Shown piece after piece: positions 1,818 to 15,807 of a DNA stretch of 23,700 nucleotides. Every line of letters begins with the position of its first letter. Position 1 is the first letter of the stretch. The DNA is taken from positions 1 to 23,700 of IMG/VR virus record IMGVR_UViG_3300006802_000581, one strand, 5' to 3'. This DNA is from a virus. Under the pieces are notes generated by a model. That model did not search any database. It was given only the letters and a program-made list of their open reading frames with translations, and was not told the DNA's origin. Both the position numbers and the translations under genes were made by a program.

Positions 1818-2062
1818 ACCAGCGGCACCCCGTTTTCTCGGCGGTAGATTTCGGCCTCGGACTGCCCCGGCGCGGCGAGGATGTCGAGGTCGAGGACGAG
1901 CGTGATTTCGGCGTCGGGCCGGAGCGCCCAAGCCTCCATGCACTCGCCCGGTTCCAGCCGCTCGCAAATCGTGTCCCATATCTGCTGCGCGTCGAGGTGC
2001 TCGCGGATCTCCTGCCCCCTCAGCGTCAGCCGCAGCGTGTCGCCGTTGCGTTTAGCGGTCAT
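1814..2062 (-). CDS. Hypothetical protein, 82 aa
   Basis: A small acidic soluble protein with no recognised domain. It starts at ATG 2062, which overlaps the methyltransferase stop (ATGA), and ends in another ATGA with the nuclease gene, so it is translationally coupled on both sides. The N-terminal half is polar (KRNGDTLRLTLRGQEIREHL) and the C-terminal half has a hydrophobic strand (ITLVLDLDILAAPG). A short RLEPGEC phrase resembles LRPGEC in the 100-residue protein near attP; this may mark a shared small fold but is too short to prove homology. Confidence 0.75.
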   Translation of the reverse strand: MTAKRNGDTLRLTLRGQEIREHLDAQQIWDTICERLEPGECMEAWALRPDAEITLVLDLDILAAPGQSEAEIYRRENGVPLV

Positions 2063-3638
2063 TCCGCACCTCCGTCGAAAAGCTCTCCCTCGAATAGCCC
2101 TGCGCGTTGAGCCAGAGCGATAAACGCCGCACCGCCCTGGAGCGCCACGACTCCATTTCCAAGCTGGCGAAGTCGGTCCACCCGATTGGCAGTCCGAGGA
2201 GCCATTCCACGAAAATCGGAGATAGTCGCCGGCGCGAGGTCTGGCCTGACGGCGAGGATTTCGCGCCATGCGTCGTGGTCGCCTGGTCCGGGTGGAAACA
2301 GTGCGCCACAAAGTTCGGAAGCTGGTCCAAGTGCATCGCCCCGGTCGAGCGATCCATGTGGCTCTCCGAGTTCGCGCCCTTGTGGTCCCGGCTGGCTGGA
2401 GTCGGCCAGGCCGACTCCGTGTTCCACGCCGTCACATCGTCCGCCAAGTTCCGACCGCCGTGCTTCGTTCCAAACCGACCAACCCGGCTCGGATCTCCGC
2501 CGCTCGAATCGTGCGCTTGGGGAGTTGTCCACCACGCCGCCTGCTCGTTCAGGTCGATGGTCCATCCCTGCTCCAGCTTCCGCTTCGACCGCGCCGAATC
2601 CGGCTGGCTCGGGTTGTGGTCGTCTCTGGCGTTCGGAGTGGCCCACTGCGCCGCCTGCGCCGTCAGGCCGCTGAAGCAGTGTTCCCCGCGATCCGCGTTC
2701 CGCTTCACGAACGTCCCAGCTTGTTCCGTGCATTCGTTCGCTCGCGGGGTGTGCCACTGCGCCGCCGCGCTCGGCGGCATCAGGTCGCCGCGGCTGCCCG
2801 CTTGGTTCGGCCCGCCGTTCGTCCCGTCCGTGCCGCGGGGTGTCGGCCAGGTCTGCGAGAACATCGCCAGCGGTGTCCCCATGCCGTTTCCGTTGCCGTG
2901 CTTCGCCTTGTTCCTCGCCCGCCTCGCCTCGAATGATTCCGGCGTCTCCCCGTCGTTCATCGCGTTCGCGTCTGGCGTCGGCCAGGTCTGCACCTTCACT
3001 TGTAAGCTGCTGATCGTTTCCGCCGCCTTGCCGGTCCTGCCCAGTTTCGTTTCGCGCATCTTGCGATACGCTTCCGGCGATTTGTTGTCGTCTTGCGCTG
3101 CTGGCGTTGGCCACCCCTCGATAGGCGAGGATAAACGCCCGCTCCCGTCGATGCGGCGCGCCAACGTCGGACGCTCGAAGAGTTCCCCACTCCGCATCGA
3201 ACCCGATTTGGGCAAGTTCTCCGAGAACGGTTGGTCCTGCTGGAAAAGCGAGAACTGGCGGGACGTTTTCGAGAAACAGCCACTCGACGGATTCCAGCTC
3301 GCGAACGAGTCGGATGATCTCGAAGAACAGTCCGCTGCGCTCTCCGGTGATGCCTGCTTGGCGACCGGCAACACTGAGGTCTTGGCAGGGGAATCCTCCA
3401 ATGATTCCAGCCACGCGGCCACGATAGAGTCGGCTTGGGAAGGTTCGCACGTCGGAGTAGATAGGTGCTTCGTCCAAGTCGCCTTGCCCCATGCGAGCCG
3501 CCAGAATCGCGGCTGCCGGACCTTCCCGCTCACAAAAACAGACGCACTTAGCTCTTGGTAGAGCGAGGGACACGGATAAATCCAACATCCCGACCCCTGA
3601 AAAAAGTGAGATATATTTGAGGGAATGTGAATCCACAC
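2052..3638 (-). CDS. Candidate overprinted protein with W-x-T-P repeats, same strand as dcm
   Basis: A 528-codon frame open over the entire methyltransferase gene. It starts at GTG 3638, immediately after the HNH stop codon and 5 nt after GGAGG. It contains seven W-x-T-P units (WPTPAAQD, WPTPDANA, WPTPRGTD, WHTPRANE, WATPNARD, WTTPQAHD, WPTPASRD) and near its end FVEWLLGLPIGWTDF (2169-2213). From memory, phage and actinobacterial proteins annotated as methyltransferase-related carry (L/W)PTPxAxD repeats and a FVEWMMGxPxGW segment; this is recall, not a search. The Dcm frame holds all catalytic motifs and is certainly coding. This frame may be a second product, or a relic of the repeat DNA (TGGCCNACNCC reads WPTP here and LADA in the Dcm frame). 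Confidence 0.35.
   Translation of the reverse strand: MWIHIPSNISHFFQGSGCWIYPCPSLYQELSASVFVSGKVRQPRFWRLAWGKATWTKHLSTPTCEPSQADSIVAAWLESLEDSPAKTSVLPVAKQASPESAADCSSRSSDSFASWNPSSGCFSKTSRQFSLFQQDQPFSENLPKSGSMRSGELFERPTLARRIDGSGRLSSPIEGWPTPAAQDDNKSPEAYRKMRETKLGRTGKAAETISSLQVKVQTWPTPDANAMNDGETPESFEARRARNKAKHGNGNGMGTPLAMFSQTWPTPRGTDGTNGGPNQAGSRGDLMPPSAAAQWHTPRANECTEQAGTFVKRNADRGEHCFSGLTAQAAQWATPNARDDHNPSQPDSARSKRKLEQGWTIDLNEQAAWWTTPQAHDSSGGDPSRVGRFGTKHGGRNLADDVTAWNTESAWPTPASRDHKGANSESHMDRSTGAMHLDQLPNFVAHCFHPDQATTTHGAKSSPSGQTSRRRLSPIFVEWLLGLPIGWTDFASLEMESWRSRAVRRLSLWLNAQGYSRESFSTEVRNDR
2059..3636 (-). CDS. dcm: C5 cytosine-specific DNA methyltransferase (Dcm family)
   Basis: A 525-residue C5-cytosine methyltransferase. 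Visible motifs are motif I LFSGVGMLD (11-19), the catalytic PCQ loop GGFPCQDLSVAG with Cys84, motif VI ENVP (123-126), motif VIII-like GAPHRRERAF, and C-terminal ANRVDRLRQLGNGVV (483-497) carrying the R-L-x-x-L-G-N-G-V signature of motifs IX/X. Between motifs VIII and IX lies a long insert of about 300 residues with seven repeats of type (L/V)(A/G/D)(D/H/N)..R. Such inserts are common in phage Dcm proteins, where the target recognition region sits. Start GTG 3636 has GGAGG 7 nt upstream inside the HNH gene. The likely role is self-methylation against host restriction. A second long frame overlaps the whole gene (see separate entry). Confidence 0.93.
   Translation of the reverse strand: MDSHSLKYISLFSGVGMLDLSVSLALPRAKCVCFCEREGPAAAILAARMGQGDLDEAPIYSDVRTFPSRLYRGRVAGIIGGFPCQDLSVAGRQAGITGERSGLFFEIIRLVRELESVEWLFLENVPPVLAFPAGPTVLGELAQIGFDAEWGTLRASDVGAPHRRERAFILAYRGVANASSARRQQIAGSVSQDARNETGQDRQGGGNDQQLTSEGADLADARRERDERRGDAGIIRGEAGEEQGEARQRKRHGDTAGDVLADLADTPRHGRDERRAEPSGQPRRPDAAERGGAVAHPASERMHGTSWDVREAERGSRGTLLQRPDGAGGAVGHSERQRRPQPEPAGFGAVEAEAGAGMDHRPERAGGVVDNSPSARFERRRSEPGWSVWNEARRSELGGRCDGVEHGVGLADSSQPGPQGRELGEPHGSLDRGDALGPASELCGALFPPGPGDHDAWREILAVRPDLAPATISDFRGMAPRTANRVDRLRQLGNGVVALQGGAAFIALAQRAGLFEGELFDGGAE
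2397..3113 (-). repeat. Seven degenerate dodecamer repeats inside dcm
   Basis: Minus-strand units close to TGGCCNACNCCN occur at 3102-3113, 2973-2984, 2838-2849, 2745-2756, 2634-2645, 2520-2531 and 2397-2408, spaced roughly 93-135 bp. Each reads W-x-T-P in one frame and a LADA/VAHP/VGHS/VDNS-type tetrapeptide in the Dcm frame. The segments between them differ. They lie in the variable insert of the methyltransferase. Confidence 0.8.
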
Positions 3639-4277
3639 CTATGCCTCCATTGCTCGCCGAATCGCATAATGGACAGTGCTCTTGGTGACGCCGTATTGTT
3701 CTGCTATTTGGCTAATCGACTCACCGTTATTGATCCGACGAGCAACATCCTGCCTATCTGAAACCGGAATCTTTGCCCACGTCACCTTTTTGTTTAAATA
3801 CTTGTGGGCGTCATACTTCCTGTGGCACGATCGGCACATTCTTGCGAAATCTGCCGGATCTGAGTAATTCCCGGTCAAATTTGCCCAATCGTAGGATTTT
3901 GATGGATCTGTAGATCCACAGACGGAACACAGAGAAGGCCTTCCGAAAAGCTTGTTCAGCCGCAAATGCTTTGCTTGATACCCAGCGGCGTCCCCTTTCC
4001 AGTTTTGATTCTGCTCTGCCCTTCTCGGTTTTCTAGCGACAGCCATCCTCCTGGGTATGCCAGCCCTTCTCATCGCTCCCCAGATCGCTTTACTGGAAGT
4101 GTTTAGATATGCAGCGACCTCGGAAATCGTCATCCCGCCTTCGTACTTTTCTTTGATCACGTCAAGTGGTAAGTCGTAACTGTAGCGATCTGACTTAGCC
4201 TTGCGCCATTGATCCGTGCATCTCGCCTTCGCGGATGCACTCATCCGCTTCCTGGTTTCTTCACTAAACTGTTTCAT
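3639..4277 (-). CDS. HNH endonuclease with helix-turn-helix segments (homing-type)
   Basis: A 212-residue protein. The N-terminal SEETRKRMSASAKAR resembles a NUMOD3 DNA-binding motif. An HTH-like stretch follows (MTISEVAAYLNTSSKAIWGA), then a zinc-binding HNH-type core with CSVCG, a central WANLTGNY and MCRSCHRKYD. A C-terminal resolvase-like HTH closes it (ESISQIAEQYGVTKSTVHYA). Start ATG 4277 has GGAGGGGA upstream. The region is clearly less GC-rich than its neighbours (28 of 60 bases G/C in the sampled line 3661-3720), which suggests recent arrival as a mobile homing gene. Its last codons carry the Shine-Dalgarno for the methyltransferase. Confidence 0.85.
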   Translation of the reverse strand: MKQFSEETRKRMSASAKARCTDQWRKAKSDRYSYDLPLDVIKEKYEGGMTISEVAAYLNTSSKAIWGAMRRAGIPRRMAVARKPRRAEQNQNWKGDAAGYQAKHLRLNKLFGRPSLCSVCGSTDPSKSYDWANLTGNYSDPADFARMCRSCHRKYDAHKYLNKKVTWAKIPVSDRQDVARRINNGESISQIAEQYGVTKSTVHYAIRRAMEA

Positions 4278-4428
4278 TCGTCCCCTCCACCCGCGCGAAC
4301 GCGCCTTCCAAAAAAAGCTCCTCAGTGAACGCATCAAACAGCGCCAGCCGCGCCCAGTCCTGCGGCTGCTCCTTCTGCAACTCCTCAGCCGCGCGAAGCT
4401 GCTGGTCACGGCACCACTGGATGGTCAT
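4264..4428 (-). CDS. Hypothetical protein, 54 aa
   Basis: A short gene starting at ATG 4428 in an ATGA overlap with the zinc-ribbon gene and ending 14 bp inside the HNH gene. The product begins MTIQWCRDQQLRAAEELQKE and is acidic and helical (AEELQKEQPQDWARLALFDA, FTEELFLEG). No family is recognised. The tight coupling on both sides and coherent composition support it as real. The HNH gene appears to have entered just after it, since composition changes at this boundary. Confidence 0.65.
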   Translation of the reverse strand: MTIQWCRDQQLRAAEELQKEQPQDWARLALFDAFTEELFLEGAFARVEGTNETV

Positions 4429-5467: not shown

Positions 5468-6532
5468 TTAGCTCGGTTTCATCTTCACCGTCTCCCCTTG
5501 TTCTCCCCTCAATTTGATTTTTGGCTCCCGCAGCGCAGCCGCCCTCTGGACATTGGCCGCGTCGATGATGTTGTAGCGCTCAAGCATTGAACTGGTCTTA
5601 TGGCCGCTGATCGCCATCGCCGTCGATGAATCCGCCCCAGCCGCCAGCCAATCGCGCACCGCAGTCCGCCGCAAGTCGTGAAACATCAACTTAGGCAGTC
5701 CCGCCTCGACTCGCGCCGTGTGCCATGCGTTTTTAAAGCTCTTGATCGGCTTCCCCGCGTTCTCAAAAACGTACTCCACATTCTTCGCCAGCGCCGTCGC
5801 GCAGTAGTGGCGCATCTCGCCGACAATCGGCGCGGTCTGGCTACGGCGGTTCTTCGTCTGTACGCGCGACACCCACACCAGCCCCGCTTCCATGTCAATC
5901 TGATCCAGTCGTAGCGCCAGCAGCGTTGAGCGCCGCAAGCCGGTGTAGTAGGCGAAGCACAGCAATGGCCGTAAATATTCCGGCAACGCGCGCTTCATTC
6001 GCTCGTACTCCTCCGGCGTCAGGAAACCAGTCCGCACGTTGTCCCCTTCGTCCAGGTGCGGCACTTGTACCGCCCTCGGAATCATCCCGTACTCGTCCGA
6101 CGCGGCCAGCCGAAGCGCCCGCCGCAGCAGGGACAGTTCCCGGTTGATCGTCGAGTCCTTGACGTGATCCTTCCGCCGCTTTGCCACATACGCCCAGATC
6201 GCCCGAGGCGTCAGCGATGCCGCCCGCTCGTGTCCTATGACCGGCCCGATGACCGACTCGGCCCTCAACTGTGGAATGTCGGCGTCCTTTCCGTTGCGGC
6301 GGTAGTCGGCAATCACGAGCTTCAGGCAGTCGGCCACGGTCACGTCCCCGCCGGCCTTGCGAACTGGAGTTCCCGCCGCGACTTCGCCGACGCGCTGGCG
6401 CAAAAGCTTCTCGGCTTTCGCCCGCGTCTCGCCTCCGAATTCTTCGTGTTGTCTGCCGTCCATGCCGTAGTACCTGACGTAGAACTTTCCGTTTCTCTCT
6501 CTCACTGAGCCTGATTTGTACTTGCGCTTCAT
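5468..6532 (-). CDS. int: Tyrosine recombinase / phage integrase
   Basis: A 354-residue integrase. It has an N-terminal Arm-DNA-binding region (SGSVRERNGKFYVRYYG), a SAM-like core-binding domain (about 65-150) and a catalytic domain with Arg200 (TGLRRST), Lys227, His285-x-x-Arg288 (FHDLRRT), His311 (SGHKT) and nucleophile Tyr320 (LERYNII). All catalytic residues are present and the length is normal. The gene ends beside the tRNA-Leu fragment, so it should integrate the phage into that tRNA gene. Its C-terminal codons contain one pair of arm-type repeats. ATG 6532 follows GGGG, partly folded into a small hairpin. It lies downstream of an excisionase-like gene. Confidence 0.95.
   Translation of the reverse strand: MKRKYKSGSVRERNGKFYVRYYGMDGRQHEEFGGETRAKAEKLLRQRVGEVAAGTPVRKAGGDVTVADCLKLVIADYRRNGKDADIPQLRAESVIGPVIGHERAASLTPRAIWAYVAKRRKDHVKDSTINRELSLLRRALRLAASDEYGMIPRAVQVPHLDEGDNVRTGFLTPEEYERMKRALPEYLRPLLCFAYYTGLRRSTLLALRLDQIDMEAGLVWVSRVQTKNRRSQTAPIVGEMRHYCATALAKNVEYVFENAGKPIKSFKNAWHTARVEAGLPKLMFHDLRRTAVRDWLAAGADSSTAMAISGHKTSSMLERYNIIDAANVQRAAALREPKIKLRGEQGETVKMKPS
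5491..5511 (+). repeat. Arm-type repeat pair, right arm of attP
   Basis: TCTCCCCTTG (5491-5500) and TCTCCCCTCA (5502-5511) are spaced 11 bp start to start and match the pair at 5303-5323. They lie inside the last codons of the integrase gene, about 30 bp from the tRNA core. The extended left and right copies (5302-5327 and 5490-5515) are similar over about 26 bp. Confidence 0.55.
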
Positions 6533-6535
6533 GCC

Positions 6536-6552
6536 CCAAGTCTAGCGCTTGG
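6536..6552 (-). promoter_or_regulatory. Small hairpin over the integrase ribosome-binding site
   Basis: CCAAG/CTTGG arms of 5 bp enclose a 7-nt loop that contains the TAG stop of the upstream gene. Part of the GGGG Shine-Dalgarno of the integrase is in the stem. Ribosomes finishing the excisionase-like gene would open it, so the two could be coupled. The stem is short and the role is inferred. Confidence 0.3.
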
Positions 6553-6769
6553 CTGCGTCGATGAACTTCTCCAGGTCGGCAACCTTAAGACGCGGATGGC
6601 TGTCGTAGAGCACAGGCCGCAGCCTGCCAGCCGCGATGAGATTCCGCACCTGTTGTTTGCTGCACGCGAGGTATTCCGCCGCCTTATCGATGGTCAGCAG
6701 GCCGCGCGGCTGGACGTTGATGCGGTCGGCTATGGCTGCGGCTAGGTCGTCGATGTTCAGCAGCGTCAC
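6542..6769 (-). CDS. Excisionase-like HTH_17 DNA-binding protein, 75 aa
   Basis: A 75-residue protein whose C-terminal half is a MerR/excisionase-type winged helix (LTIDKAAEYLACSKQQVRNL, then IAAGRLRPVLYDSHPRLKVA). This is the HTH_17 pattern found in excisionases and in regulators. Start GTG 6769 forms a GTGA overlap with the upstream gene; no better start exists. Its position directly before int makes a recombination directionality factor (Xis) the likely role, with transcriptional regulator as the alternative. Confidence 0.78.
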   Translation of the reverse strand: MTLLNIDDLAAAIADRINVQPRGLLTIDKAAEYLACSKQQVRNLIAAGRLRPVLYDSHPRLKVADLEKFIDAAKR

Positions 6770-9071: not shown

Positions 9072-9500
9072 TCAGAAGGGCAGGTCGTCAGAGTCGGCTA
9101 GCGAATCGCCAGCGGTGGCAGCGAACGGCGAACCGCTCAACTCCATCGGTTTTGATCCACTGCCTGGGACGTACAGCCCCTTCAAATTCGTCCGCCCGTT
9201 GTACTCCTCGGCCTTCGCCTGGACTTGCTTGCCAGTCATCACGGTCGCGATATGGACGCGCCAGCCCGCCGATACGAGCGCCTGTGCATCACAGCCGAAC
9301 TCTATCAGCTTCTCGAAGATGCGGTCGTTGTTCGATTTGCCGTCCTTGCCCTTGTTGGAGCCCAGCCAGCACATCGAATTGACGGTTTCGCCGTCGATGA
9401 ACATCTGGATTTGAAACGCCGGTTTGTTGTTTTGGCCGACCTCGACAACCTCGAATCCGACCCACTCGCCCGTGTAGTATTTGCCCGCTTCGAGTTGCAT
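9072..9500 (-). CDS. Single-stranded DNA-binding protein-like, 142 aa
   Basis: The C-terminus LADSDDLPF is an SSB-type acidic tip (compare DDDIPF), which recruits repair and replication proteins. The body is a beta-rich domain (GEWVGFEVVEVGQNNKPAFQ, TVNSMCWLGSN, GWRVHIATVMTGKQVQAKAE, TNLKGLYVP) compatible with an OB fold, though classical SSB motifs are not obvious. It is linked to the RecT-like gene by TAATG. Exonuclease, annealase and SSB in one operon form a Red-type recombination module. Confidence 0.78.
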   Translation of the reverse strand: MQLEAGKYYTGEWVGFEVVEVGQNNKPAFQIQMFIDGETVNSMCWLGSNKGKDGKSNNDRIFEKLIEFGCDAQALVSAGWRVHIATVMTGKQVQAKAEEYNGRTNLKGLYVPGSGSKPMELSGSPFAATAGDSLADSDDLPF

Positions 9501-10168
9501 TACTGCACCCCCTCACGCGCGGCGGCGAGGCGTTCTTTGATGGCTTCCGTTGCGGTCGCCGTCTTCGCTTCCGTCGCGTCGATAACCTGCTCGATGGTCA
9601 GTTCCTGCGCGTCGTACATGACCGCGCCGACGACTTCGGCGGCGTACCAGCGGTGGAAATTCGAGATGCACCGCGCGTGCAGCATGTTGCGCGGGATCTT
9701 GTCGTAGTTGCCGACCTTACCACCGCCGCGCGAGTTGTTCACCCATCCGGCCTTCTCCGCGTCCTCCATCGTCACCGTCAGGTCCAGCGGCGCACCGTTC
9801 ACGTCCTGCATCGGCTGGCCCTTGTACCAGAACCGCAGCGTTACCTGCTTTTCCGTGTGAACCACCGGACGCCAGTCGTAACCGGCCTGCTTCAGAAACA
9901 TCGCGCGGGCATTGGCCGACAGCGCCGGTTTGCCGCTGATGATGTGGATCATCTGCAACGACAGAGCCGGGTTGAGGCCAAGGTCGCGCCCCATCGCGAT
10001 GGCGTAGGCGTTCGCGTCCGTCGCGTAGACCTTCGCCGTCAGGGCGTCGGCCCGCGCCGCTTCGGCCTGCTGCCGCGCCGACGTGTTCTCCACAATCGTG
10101 TCAAGAATCGACGGCTGCGCCGCCTGTTGCACTTGCGCCGCTTCCGGCGTCGTCTGAGTCGTGCTCAT
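9500..10168 (-). CDS. recT: RecT-like single-strand annealing protein
   Basis: A 222-residue protein with the layout of phage RecT-family recombinases: a GRDLGLNPALSLQMIHIISG helix-strand, GKPALSANARAMFLKQAGYDW, a DAEKAGW segment and KIPRNMLHARCISNFHRW followed by EVVGAVMYDAQELT. These match the conserved core of annealases that pair resected ssDNA with homologous strands. The N-terminal 25 residues and the C-terminus are Ala/Thr/Glu-rich linkers. Start ATG 10168 with GAAGGAGAAAGC overlaps the exonuclease stop (ATGA). It is slightly shorter than many RecT proteins. Confidence 0.85.
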   Translation of the reverse strand: MSTTQTTPEAAQVQQAAQPSILDTIVENTSARQQAEAARADALTAKVYATDANAYAIAMGRDLGLNPALSLQMIHIISGKPALSANARAMFLKQAGYDWRPVVHTEKQVTLRFWYKGQPMQDVNGAPLDLTVTMEDAEKAGWVNNSRGGGKVGNYDKIPRNMLHARCISNFHRWYAAEVVGAVMYDAQELTIEQVIDATEAKTATATEAIKERLAAAREGVQ

Positions 10169-11160
10169 GCTTTCTCCTTCTTCGTTGTCACCCGCAGCGG
10201 CCTGGACAAAGACCGAACCGCCACTTCCTTGTAAATCTCCGGGTACTTCAACTTCAGCCCCGCCGCGTCGATCCGCATGGACTCCTGCGGCGCGTAGCTG
10301 ACTTTGTACGGCCCCGCGTAAGCCGTCGCCGTGTCGCCCAGCGCTTCGACCAGCCGCGACTGGCACTGCTCTTTGTGCTCCTCGGCAGACTTCACAATCG
10401 CCCGCGCATCGTCGAACTGCTGGACGATCTGAATCAAGTCATCCCGCCGCTCGTCGCCGCCGACGTTGGCCCATTCCTCATCCCGACAGCTCGCGCCGAA
10501 TTCGCAGCCGTCGCAGCGGGTGTCCCGCGGATTCAGCGGCGGCGGCGGGTTGCGGTCGGTGACGCGCTGCCAGAACTCGTCCACTCGCTCCGATACCAGC
10601 GCCATCAACTCGTCGTCGTACTCAAATTGATAGAGCTTAACCTCGCCGTCGCCGTCGTGTTCACGGTTCCACGCGGCTATCGCGCCCCACTTCCAGCCCG
10701 TGAGCCGCATGTACCACTGGAGTTGCAGGACATACTGCTGCGGCACGCCGTCAAATAGCCATTTCCAGTACGCCTGACGGCCAATGCACTTGATCTCCAG
10801 CACTCCCGGCCCGCGCTCGTCCATGGCAACGATGTGCCGGTCGATATGCGCCCCTTCGTGCTCCATTCCCTGCACGGGGGCTTTCCGGCGCAGCTTTAAG
10901 CCGAACTGCCGCTCGACCTCATCGGCAATCCAGTCTTCCATGACGGTGCCGACGCGCATCGGGCCGGTTTCGCGAAACGGGCGATCCTCGGGTTGGTGGG
11001 TCTTGCGATACCACAGCCGGCGGGCGCAGCCGTAAGGCTCCAGGTTCAGGACGGCGGCGATCTCGGACCCGCCGACGTATCCGCGCCGATTGCTGGCGTC
11101 CTTGGGGATCGGTGCGGGGTTGTGGGCTTCGAGTTGGTGGAAGCGGTGGGTGAAGGTCAT
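10165..11160 (-). CDS. YqaJ-type recombination exonuclease with possible Fe-S cluster
   Basis: A 331-residue lambda-exonuclease-like (YqaJ, PF09588) 5'-3' nuclease. Motifs seen are VGGSEIAAVLN (29-39), a G-x-x-x-E helix with Glu75, Asp107 in HIDRHI, Glu122-x-Lys124 in GVLEIKCIG, and QLQWYMRLTG (147-156). It degrades one strand so the RecT-like protein can anneal the other. Unusually, Cys45 (YGCARRLWY) and a C-terminal C-x2-C-x5-C (216, 219, 225) reproduce the four-Cys pattern of Cas4/AddB-type [4Fe-4S] nucleases. The C-terminal 90 residues form an extra helical tail. Start ATG 11160 overlaps the upstream stop. Confidence 0.9.
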   Translation of the reverse strand: MTFTHRFHQLEAHNPAPIPKDASNRRGYVGGSEIAAVLNLEPYGCARRLWYRKTHQPEDRPFRETGPMRVGTVMEDWIADEVERQFGLKLRRKAPVQGMEHEGAHIDRHIVAMDERGPGVLEIKCIGRQAYWKWLFDGVPQQYVLQLQWYMRLTGWKWGAIAAWNREHDGDGEVKLYQFEYDDELMALVSERVDEFWQRVTDRNPPPPLNPRDTRCDGCEFGASCRDEEWANVGGDERRDDLIQIVQQFDDARAIVKSAEEHKEQCQSRLVEALGDTATAYAGPYKVSYAPQESMRIDAAGLKLKYPEIYKEVAVRSLSRPLRVTTKKEKA

Positions 11161-11342
11161 GCCAACCCCACAGCAACCGCGACCACAGACGCGAGCGCAT
11201 ACCACGCCGAGCGGTTGAACTGCGCGTTGTGGTAGCGCCAGTTGTGCTTACCCTTTGGCCCGAAGGCGCGGCGGAAGCACAGCCACGCGAGGATCATAAG
11301 GTCGGCAGCGGCGCAAAGCCAGAGGATCACGGCGGGGGTCAT
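11157..11342 (-). CDS. Small membrane protein, 61 aa
   Basis: Two hydrophobic segments are visible: PAVILWLCAAADLMILAWLC at the N-terminus and WYALASVVAVAVGLA at the C-terminus, with a basic loop between them (RRAFGPKGKHNWRYHN). ATG 11342 forms ATGA with the upstream stop. A two-TM hairpin protein in the early region; function unknown, and its place far from the lysis genes argues against a holin. Confidence 0.68.
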   Translation of the reverse strand: MTPAVILWLCAAADLMILAWLCFRRAFGPKGKHNWRYHNAQFNRSAWYALASVVAVAVGLA

Positions 11343-11584: not shown

Positions 11585-11830
11585 TTACGCCGTGCGGCCC
11601 ATCGGCGGGTTGAACCGCGCCTCGTTGTGTCCAACGCGCCGCCCGCGTTCAAACATCGCGGCGTCACAGATGTCGTCCACCTGCCACCGCTGGATTCCGT
11701 ACTCGCGGGCGATGGTGAATCGGCTAGTGCCGAACACTAAAGCTCGCCTTGCGATGCTGGCTTTTTCGTGCTGATTCAACTTCACGGGAACAAGCGCCCG
11801 CGAATGTACCACTTGCAGCTGTGCGGTCAT
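11585..11830 (-). CDS. HTH protein, 81 aa
   Basis: The centre carries a helix-turn-helix pattern: HEKASIARRALVFGTSRFTI, AREYGIQRWQVDDICDA, resembling the HTH_23/resolvase type. ATG 11830 with GGGAGAAAAGCC overlaps the stop of the RHH-like gene (ATGA). As the second gene of the leftward early operon, a transcriptional regulator is a reasonable reading, but the family is not certain. Confidence 0.7.
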   Translation of the reverse strand: MTAQLQVVHSRALVPVKLNQHEKASIARRALVFGTSRFTIAREYGIQRWQVDDICDAAMFERGRRVGHNEARFNPPMGRTA

Positions 11831-12030
11831 GGCTTTTCTCCCTTGGGTCTATCATCGTGAGTGCCTACCAGCAGGTCGATAGCCTGCTCGATAGCGCCAC
11901 CGATCATCAGTCCGCGAGTACGAGCGTAAATCGCTAGTCGCTTTGCCTTCGACGGGCGAAGTTTCCAGTGGTACGTTCTCCGTTCCTCGATTTCGATATG
12001 ATTAGGTGTCGCTTCGGTGTCGCTGCTCAC
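11827..12030 (-). CDS. Ribbon-helix-helix-like protein, first gene of the leftward early operon, 67 aa
   Basis: The middle of the protein reads as a ribbon-helix-helix DNA-binding fold: strand RRTYHWKLRP, helix SKAKRLAIYARTRG, then helix IGGAIEQAIDLLVG. The ends are charged and probably flexible. The only usable start is GTG 12030, with no clear Shine-Dalgarno. A candidate -10 (TAGTAT, 12042-12037) would start transcription at about 12030, so the mRNA may be leaderless. It diverges from another RHH-like gene across a tandem 8-bp repeat, which points to repressor/antirepressor function. Confidence 0.68.
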   Translation of the reverse strand: MSSDTEATPNHIEIEERRTYHWKLRPSKAKRLAIYARTRGLMIGGAIEQAIDLLVGTHDDRPKGEKP

Positions 12031-12036
12031 AACCTG

Positions 12037-12066
12037 ATACTACAGTCAGACAGTCAGACATTGCAA
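12037..12066 (-). promoter_or_regulatory. Candidate leftward early promoter
   Basis: On the minus strand, -35 TTGCAA (12066-12061) and -10 TAGTAT (12042-12037) are separated by 18 bp. The spacer is filled by the tandem repeat, so a repressor bound there would block the promoter. Predicted transcription start is at the GTG start codon of the gene at 12030. Confidence 0.42.
12043..12058 (+). repeat. Tandem 8-bp operator-like repeat
   Basis: CAGTCAGA occurs twice in direct tandem (12043-12050, 12051-12058), followed by CA. It lies between two divergent genes whose products look like RHH proteins. RHH repressors such as MetJ bind tandem 8-bp boxes, so the period fits. Confidence 0.55.
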
Positions 12067-12100
12067 GCAGAAAAACAGACTTTTCAAAACAAAGTGCTTT

Positions 12101-12478
12101 ATGAAAACTTCCAAATGGCGTCCGACTCTTCTCCTGCCTCCCGAGGCTGAAAACCAACTCCAAGTGCTCGCCGCGAAACTCGGCGTGAGCCTTCAGGAAA
12201 TGATGCGCGACGCCGTAATGTCTCTACTGCGCCCGCAGTCCATGCCGTTGAGCAAAAAAGATGAAGATGTGTTAGCATTTCTAGGCGACATCACGCTAAA
12301 CAGCCCGAAAATCGCGGAGTCTATTAGAGATCTAATCGCTAAGTGTGCGGAGGAATACACGGCTCATGGGCACTCTACACTCGATGAACGAATCGAGACA
12401 GAGCTTGGAAAAGCGCAGCGAATTGTGGGTGCGCCTGCGCGAAGTACGAGACGCAATAAGGCGACTCGAGGCGCTTGA
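12101..12478 (+). CDS. Divergent regulator candidate with RHH-like N-terminus, 125 aa
   Basis: The N-terminal 45 residues read strand-helix-helix (KWRPTLLLPPEAENQLQVLA, AKLGVSLQEMMRDAVMSLL), the ribbon-helix-helix pattern of CopG/Arc-type repressors. The remainder is helical (KIAESIRDLIAKCAEEYTA) and ends in a basic tail. It runs opposite to both flanking operons from ATG 12101, with no strong Shine-Dalgarno and a relatively AT-rich leader. This position, between early and late leftward operons, is where a temperate phage keeps its repressor. The repressor role is inferred. Confidence 0.72.
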   Translation: MKTSKWRPTLLLPPEAENQLQVLAAKLGVSLQEMMRDAVMSLLRPQSMPLSKKDEDVLAFLGDITLNSPKIAESIRDLIAKCAEEYTAHGHSTLDERIETELGKAQRIVGAPARSTRRNKATRGA

Positions 12479-12527
12479 AAAGGAGATTCTCGCCCGCCTC
12501 GAAAATGAAAAAGCCCCCCGGCGTTAA
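12366..12527 (+). CDS. Small coiled-coil protein, 53 aa
   Basis: From ATG 12366 the frame encodes one charged helix with heptad character (RLREVRDAIRRLEALEKEIL, ARLENEK). GGAGG lies 12 nt upstream, rather far. It overlaps the 3' part of the upstream gene by 113 bp in another frame, which is long, so one of the two C-terminal readings could be non-coding. Its TAA stop lies in the loop of the terminator at 12508-12538. Confidence 0.45.
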   Translation: MGTLHSMNESRQSLEKRSELWVRLREVRDAIRRLEALEKEILARLENEKAPRR

Positions 12528-12538
12528 CCGGAGGGCTT
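12508..12538 (-). terminator. Intrinsic terminator of the late leftward operon
   Basis: AAGCCC pairs with GGGCTT and, after one mismatch, CCGG with CCGG, closing a 6-nt loop (12522-12527). On the minus strand it is followed by a run of five T (12512-12508). The loop holds TTAA, which supplies the stop codons of the + strand 53-residue gene and of the minus-strand zinc-finger gene. It marks the end of the tail/lysis transcription unit. Confidence 0.8.
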
Positions 12539-15228: not shown

Positions 15229-15402
15229 ATGGTCAGACTGTACGGCAACACCTACCCGGTAAAAGAAGCTCTCAAGGCTATTGGCGCTCGCTGGAACGCC
15301 GCCGAAAAAGCCTGGTACGTTCCGTCCAACCAGTCTCTCGTCGCAATGGCAATGATCGAACGCGGCTGCACCGCCGATGAGTTTTACGGACGCAACAATT
15401 AA
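15229..15402 (+). CDS. DUF5710-like protein, 57 aa
   Basis: Residues 6-31 (GNTYPVKEALKAIGARWNAA then EKAWYVPS) match the DUF5710 pattern, in which a small domain has the K-x-x-GARW...k-x-WyvP signature. This domain is often fused to primases and plasmid proteins; here it stands alone. ATG 15229 has GAGGAGAGAG upstream. It is the first of three closely spaced + strand genes that interrupt the leftward late operon. Confidence 0.75.
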   Translation: MVRLYGNTYPVKEALKAIGARWNAAEKAWYVPSNQSLVAMAMIERGCTADEFYGRNN

Positions 15403-15416
15403 CCACAGAGGAAACC

Positions 15417-15644
15417 ATGACCACCATCACCCACAACGGAAAACAGGCTCGCTTGCGGGCCGAGATTGGCGAATTCATCACCGAAACGCAAGCCAAGCGC
15501 GCCCTCAAGGCCATCGGCGGCAAAGGCCATTGGTTTGTTGGCGACAACGGCGTGCAGATTTTCAAACTGCACAACGGCCCGTTTGTTCTGCGCCAGCTTT
15601 CGCCGGATCAGGTCGCCGCCGTGCGGGAGGCGTCCAATGCCTAA
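15417..15644 (+). CDS. Hypothetical protein, 75 aa
   Basis: ATG 15417 with GAGGAAACC. The product (ITHNGKQARLRAEIGEFITE, TQAKRALKAIGGKGHWFVGD, then NGVQIFKLHNGPFVLRQL) is a compact basic alpha/beta protein. Its ALKAIGGKGHWFVG phrase recalls the ALKAIGARW...WYVP phrase of the preceding gene, so the two may be distant duplicates. It overlaps the next gene by 8 bp. Confidence 0.7.
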   Translation: MTTITHNGKQARLRAEIGEFITETQAKRALKAIGGKGHWFVGDNGVQIFKLHNGPFVLRQLSPDQVAAVREASNA

Positions 15645-15807
15645 AGACCCCGCCGCCGTCGCCCTCGGCCGCAAGGGCGGGCAGGCGAAGGTTAGTAAAG
15701 GCCCAACCAAAAGTATGACACCGGAAGAGAAATCCGCTTGGGGCAAGCGGCAAGCGGAGGCCAAGAAAGCCAAGCGGGCAGCTACCGCAGACGCTCCCAA
15801 GCCTTGA
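15637..15807 (+). CDS. Small basic protein, 56 aa
   Basis: ATG 15637 with GGGAGG upstream. The sequence is low-complexity and Lys/Ala-rich (AAVALGRKGGQAKVSKGPTK, EEKSAWGKRQAEAKKAKRAA). The LGRKGGQAK...GP phrase is seen in many small phage and bacterial proteins. It may bind nucleic acid. Its last 26 bp overlap, tail to tail, the end of the minus-strand 59-residue gene. Confidence 0.65.
   Translation: MPKDPAAVALGRKGGQAKVSKGPTKSMTPEEKSAWGKRQAEAKKAKRAATADAPKP

Follow-up and report, generated by a model that had tools for sequence, protein, structure and literature searches.

To our knowledge, the main examples of bacteriophage repressors with the ribbon-helix-helix (RHH) fold are those of the secondary immunity region of P22. 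This region, immI, contains two small RHH repressors that are divergently transcribed, with the operator placed inside a promoter. Its two repressor genes are mnt and arc (PMC2629481). The immI region controls the antirepressor gene ant and is a moron in the late operon, located beside a classical c2/cro switch. In SSV1, the RHH protein F55 maintains lysogeny via repeated sites at early promoters (PMC9608457). SSV1 is an archaeal virus with a single RHH protein of this kind, 55 aa long, whose 11-nt sites are found in several promoters. MetJ, a host metabolic regulator that uses a corepressor, binds tandem palindromic boxes of 8 bp with adjacent RHH dimers. Our searches of an open-access literature library retrieved no description of an RHH pair that acts as the main switch in a tailed phage.

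We analyzed a 23.7-kb phage record, positions 1 to 23,700 of IMGVR_UViG_3300006802_000581 (hereafter the window), in which two small divergent RHH-type genes flank a candidate operator situated inside a promoter, as in P22 immI. As for SSV1 F55, the arrangement combines an RHH protein with repeated sites at an early promoter, which it is predicted to bind; no sequence relation between the two systems was shown. We consider it reasonably probable that the locus controls the choice between lysis and lysogeny in a temperate tailed phage devoid of a cI-type helix-turn-helix (HTH) repressor, and that the divergent protein, RHH2, represses the early promoter. If true, a main RHH switch working without such a repressor would broaden the definition of a lysogeny module and account for temperate phages without an annotated repressor.

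Nearly all genes of the window are oriented leftward. The real-looking rightward exceptions are RHH2 (12101-12478), a small open reading frame (ORF) that overlaps its 3' end (12366-12527) and a short island of genes near 15229-15807. A near-identical twin record, G001 (99.97% over 17.6 kb), reaches further right and stops beside the terminase genes. The phage also encodes an SF2 helicase. A first search with YqaJ matched only the twin and one remote record. The features of interest are as follows.

5468-6532, minus strand: tyrosine integrase, marker of a temperate phage (Phage_integrase, 5.8e-24)
6542-6769, minus strand: excisionase-like HTH_17 protein
9500-11205, minus strand: YqaJ exonuclease and RecT-like annealing protein, early genes downstream of RHH1
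11585-11830, minus strand: second early gene, with weak HTH similarity (CENP-B_N 0.006, KorA 0.14)
11827-12030, minus strand: RHH1, 67 aa from its GTG, heading the leftward early operon (AlphaFold2 model against the PDB; homologues)
12037-12042, minus strand: -10 element TAGTAT of the early promoter (sequence; same TAnnnT-6 nt-GTG geometry in relatives)
12042-12060, no strand: tandem 8-bp repeat ACAGTCAG, 2.4 copies, candidate operator filling the promoter spacer (sequence)
12061-12066, minus strand: -35 element of the early promoter, TTGCAA (sequence; TTGACC/TTGACT at the aligned position in relatives)
12101-12478, plus strand: RHH2, 125 aa, proposed lysogeny repressor with an N-terminal RHH and a helical C-terminal domain (Pfam)
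12366-12527, plus strand: small ORF, 53 aa from its ATG, overlapping the 3' end of RHH2; possible accessory protein
12511-12538, minus strand: intrinsic terminator of the leftward late operon

On the minus strand, TTGCAA (12066-12061) is followed by TGTCTGACTGTCTGACTG (12060-12043), TAGTAT (12042-12037), CAGGTT and the GTG of the first early gene (12030). As the -10 element ends only 6 nt before this GTG, the early mRNA is probably leaderless, and early transcription would begin at GTG 12030 or adjoining it. The promoter was not listed by a generic scanner because only 8 of its 12 positions match. Its position is kept in relatives nevertheless. We scanned with a three-sequence alignment (A3) of a conserved late gene and obtained 35 related phages, 12 of which have an RHH1 homologue with a GTG start as their first early gene. 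Each of these 12 has TTGACC or a close variant, 17 to 18 nt, a TAnnnT-like -10 element, 6 nt and the GTG. The same geometry was found in at least 13 related phages, and G003, whose terminase is 76% identical, displays it; L126 and L129 are close to G003. Judged by this comparison, the leftward early promoter is real. A short element, GCTATATAGC, is conserved about 70 to 80 nt upstream of the early GTG in the RHH1-bearing relatives, and at this position the window reads TGCTTTATGAA (plus strand), which contains the RHH2 start codon. At the same distance from the early GTG in the integrase-negative records L143 to L156, a conserved palindrome, TGCTATATAGC, directly follows the late terminator. 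It could be an extended -10 element or an operator, and it is replaced by the RHH2 start in the window.

The whole 18-nt spacer between TTGCAA and TAGTAT consists of a tandem repeat. An exact tandem of CAGTCAGA is present at 12043-12058 and nowhere else in the window. The preliminary description had reported a perfect tandem in the spacer of a candidate promoter, and the run proved longer than it stated: perfect period-8 repetition extends over 12042-12060 (19 nt, 2.4 copies), reading ACAGTCAG-ACAGTCAG-ACA. It is the sole perfect tandem repeat of period 8 to 14 across the window. The chance of such a run, for periods of 7 to 12 in a 70-nt spacer with matching dinucleotide composition, is 0.0017, and 0.05 such runs are expected by chance in the whole window; a laxer local measure gives 0.07. 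Each box holds the odd palindrome GTC-A-GAC (12045-12051 and 12053-12059), with two-fold symmetry around one base. The period of 8 and the palindromic cores are shared with the MetJ boxes. However, the met box is AGACGTCT whereas that of the window is GTCAGACA; the boxes are not of the AGACGTCT type, and no MetJ homology was found.

Sequence profile searches returned no family match for RHH1. We built an AlphaFold2 model from five sequences (50 aa, pLDDT 73), and almost all of its PDB matches were RHH proteins, namely, PutA, CopG, Arc, AmrZ, NikR and MatP, with Z scores of 5 to 6.4 over about 43 residues. The model superposed on PutA, CopG and Arc chains with deviations of 0.9 to 1.8 A, at Foldseek E-values of 0.46 and above. 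On the basis of this model, RHH1 belongs to the RHH superfamily, with a predicted beta-alpha-alpha fold. The RHH1 homologues occupy the same place in 12 phages, and the 11 that were aligned are 24 to 36% identical to RHH1. Ungapped similarity with the most distant ones was weak (p = 0.016 for G003 and about 0.05 for four taken together), and homology was settled because closer homologues were found. Codon usage of RHH1 reads as coding. The second early gene (11585-11830) could be another regulator.

For RHH2, the N-terminus matched the Pfam families Antitox_RHH (5.7e-5) and RHH_1 (1.4e-3), both under the curated cut-offs, weakly but specifically. This N-terminal profile match assigns RHH2 to the RHH superfamily. 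The claim that both flanking genes are of RHH type was thus supported, by the AlphaFold2 model for RHH1 and by Pfam for RHH2. A single-sequence AlphaFold2 model of RHH2 placed helices at residues 14-27 and 31-43 plus three more, at low confidence (mean pLDDT 63.5). Fold searches with the whole model returned common helical arrangements and were uninformative, with permuted Arc (1u9p) at rank 2 and an E-value of 1.2. Codon usage of RHH2 reads as coding. No convincing promoter was found for RHH2, and direct searches of viral contigs, genome contigs and phage records retrieved only the twin record.

RHH2 and the small ORF form an extra cassette that separates the late terminator from the early promoter. 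Integrase-negative relatives have this terminator about 80 to 90 nt upstream of the RHH1 GTG with nothing between, whereas in the window it is 480 nt from the early GTG because the cassette intervenes. The codon signal of the small ORF is weak and equivocal, and it matched no Pfam or PHROG family. In a single comparison, it was 33% identical over 46 aa to the small ORF found at the same place in L157 (BLASTP E = 0.001). Its product may act as a helper or as an inducer, or may be toxic. The cassette might instead be a type II toxin-antitoxin moron, in which the antitoxin autoregulates through the boxes and touches the early promoter incidentally. The best Pfam match of RHH2 is indeed Antitox_RHH, NCBIfam gives a weak RelB-like antitoxin match, in toxin-antitoxin modules the RHH gene usually comes first and is overlapped by a small second gene, and other rightward cargo is present at 15229-15807. 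We nevertheless regard this reading as unlikely: the 53-aa product matches no toxin family, the boxes are placed exactly between the -35 and -10 elements of that promoter, and, as described below, the cassette and the integrase occur together. The island at 15229-15807 contains two or three small ORFs within the leftward late operon, one of them a DUF5710 protein (2.8e-8), and it looks like a moron.

We found an integrase in the window and its twin G001 and in L157, L162, L165, L166 and L167, and in none of the rest of the set. A divergent RHH or RHH-like gene was present in all six integrase-bearing phages (the window, L157, L162, L165, L166 and L167) and in 0 of about 14 integrase-negative relatives (Fisher 2.6e-5, ignoring kinship), several of the latter being fragments in which the absence of an integrase is not proven (L126 ends soon after YqaJ). 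With records longer than 30 kb only, the counts were 6/6 and 0/6 (Fisher 0.002, again ignoring kinship). Many of the relatives compared are fragments, and the comparison spans about three independent lineages. RHH2 therefore has the context expected of a lysogeny repressor, being divergent, adjoining the early promoter, carried by an integrase-bearing phage and absent from integrase-negative relatives. RHH1 behaves otherwise, since its homologue is the conserved first early gene also in relatives with neither an integrase nor a divergent gene. Hence, it is not specific to lysogeny and has a role outside it. The lysogeny switch that the preliminary description had built from the two proteins is supported as regards the divergent gene, which tracks with the integrase, but not as regards RHH1 as a lysogeny-specific partner.

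The same comparison bears on whether the boxes might be an autoregulatory site for RHH1, with RHH2 an unrelated lysogenic gene. Arc and CopG act on their own promoters, the RHH1 model resembles both proteins, and RHH1 would be expressed from this very promoter. Integrase-negative relatives, however, keep RHH1 and the promoter with no tandem repeat there. Repeats occur only alongside a divergent gene, bar a weak period-9 case within the early promoter of L129 (about 3115-3135), a record without integrase. Binding of RHH1 to its own promoter in an Arc-like manner thus appears an improbable account of the boxes.

A second array supports the proposed repression of the early promoter through the boxes by the divergent protein. 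L157 has a 135-aa RHH-like divergent gene, whose end is overlapped by a small ORF. At its version of the early promoter (TTGACT-18-TAGGAT), it carries the array CTACTTTT CTACTTGA CTACCTGA CTACTTCC, four copies with a period of 8 (p about 0.005). The core TGACTnnnTGACT is common to the two arrays, in the same orientation, and in about 1 Mb of compared sequence it is present in these two promoters and in two other places only. By our own estimate, coincidence of the TGACT core by chance would be about 1 in 10, given two repeats. The window integrase used as a query had no match in L157, so the two lysogeny modules look independently acquired. RHH2 and the L157 divergent gene show no detectable sequence similarity, and searches of viral contigs, genome contigs and phage records found no relatives of the latter.

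L162, L165, L166 and L167 have textbook divergent RHH pairs, whose members are 37 to 45% identical within one phage and are separated by about 100 bp, or by at most about 150 bp in L165. The pair adjoins the integrase where this was mapped (L166 and L167). A hidden Markov model of these pairs did not detect RHH1, RHH2 or the L157 gene. Their sites are inverted repeats of the GCGCAC/GTGCG type with no 8-bp tandem, and the 8-bp style is therefore not universal. The expectation that related phages with a divergent pair would share the repeat was borne out in L157, which has its own 8-bp tandem, and failed in these four.

The absence of the usual cI/cro HTH pair, noted from the start, held in both records of the phage: with HTH_3 and S24 models, we found nothing in the window or G001, which lack the left end of the genome. 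In L137 and L138, the region beyond the helicase contains primase-like and HNH genes and no evident repressor. The locus resembles lambda-type cI/Cro switches by its divergent regulator at the early promoter and its operator between promoter elements, but the proteins are HTH there and RHH in the window, and no HTH_3 or S24 repressor was found in the sequenced part of the genome. It also departs from P22 immI: the pair is located at the head of the early operon, our searches found no repressor of the cI type, and no ant-like gene was recognised downstream of RHH1. One might argue that there is no switch here, the repeat being a product of chance or neutral, RHH1 and RHH2 generic regulators, and the true repressor encoded at the left end, which is not sequenced. 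The sequence available from the window and its twin does fall short of the whole genome, and the chance of the repeat ranges from 0.0017 to 0.07 according to the measure. Given the lack of an evident repressor in L137 and L138, the absence of HTH_3 and S24 matches and the independent array in L157, we hold this to be very unlikely. An HTH_3 protein is encoded in the early operon of one RHH1-bearing relative (L126, 3253-3504). L138 also has a P22 coat-like protein (1150-1992, 3.7e-10) amid early-region genes, an odd place for a capsid gene.

Under the reading that we favor, with RHH2 repressing the early promoter, host RNA polymerase would use TTGCAA-18-TAGTAT in the lytic state and produce a leaderless mRNA that starts at the RHH1 GTG and extends through the genes for recombination and integration. 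The lysogen would express RHH2 from the divergent gene, and this protein is predicted to bind the two 8-bp boxes as adjacent dimers. By occupying the spacer between the -35 and -10 elements, it would exclude the polymerase and block the early promoter. Upon induction, the promoter would fire and yield RHH1 and the early genes. RHH1 would then be an inherited early regulator, with possible feedback on this region like that of Cro or Arc. The spacer filled by the candidate operator, the probably leaderless mRNA and the existence of relatives with and without integrase make the proposal readily testable with short DNA and two small proteins.

More tentatively, and with somewhat less than even confidence, we propose that there may be a cI-free class of temperate tailed phages in which RHH proteins are the primary switch. 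The divergent RHH cassette would have been gained in at least three lineages, with unrelated integrases in the window and L157. Every gain would have placed it at, or close to, an early promoter associated with a small RHH gene, and two of the lineages might use a small protein encoded alongside it as helper or inducer.

Two further observations were made along the genome. A C5 cytosine methyltransferase and an HTH/HNH-like homing endonuclease (2059-3636 and 3639-4409) have a GC3 below that of their neighbours and are likely recent cargo. On the terminase side, many independent contigs (L009 to L015) stop about 440 to 530 nt before the start of the terminase large subunit, and these ends look like a fixed physical genome end (cos).
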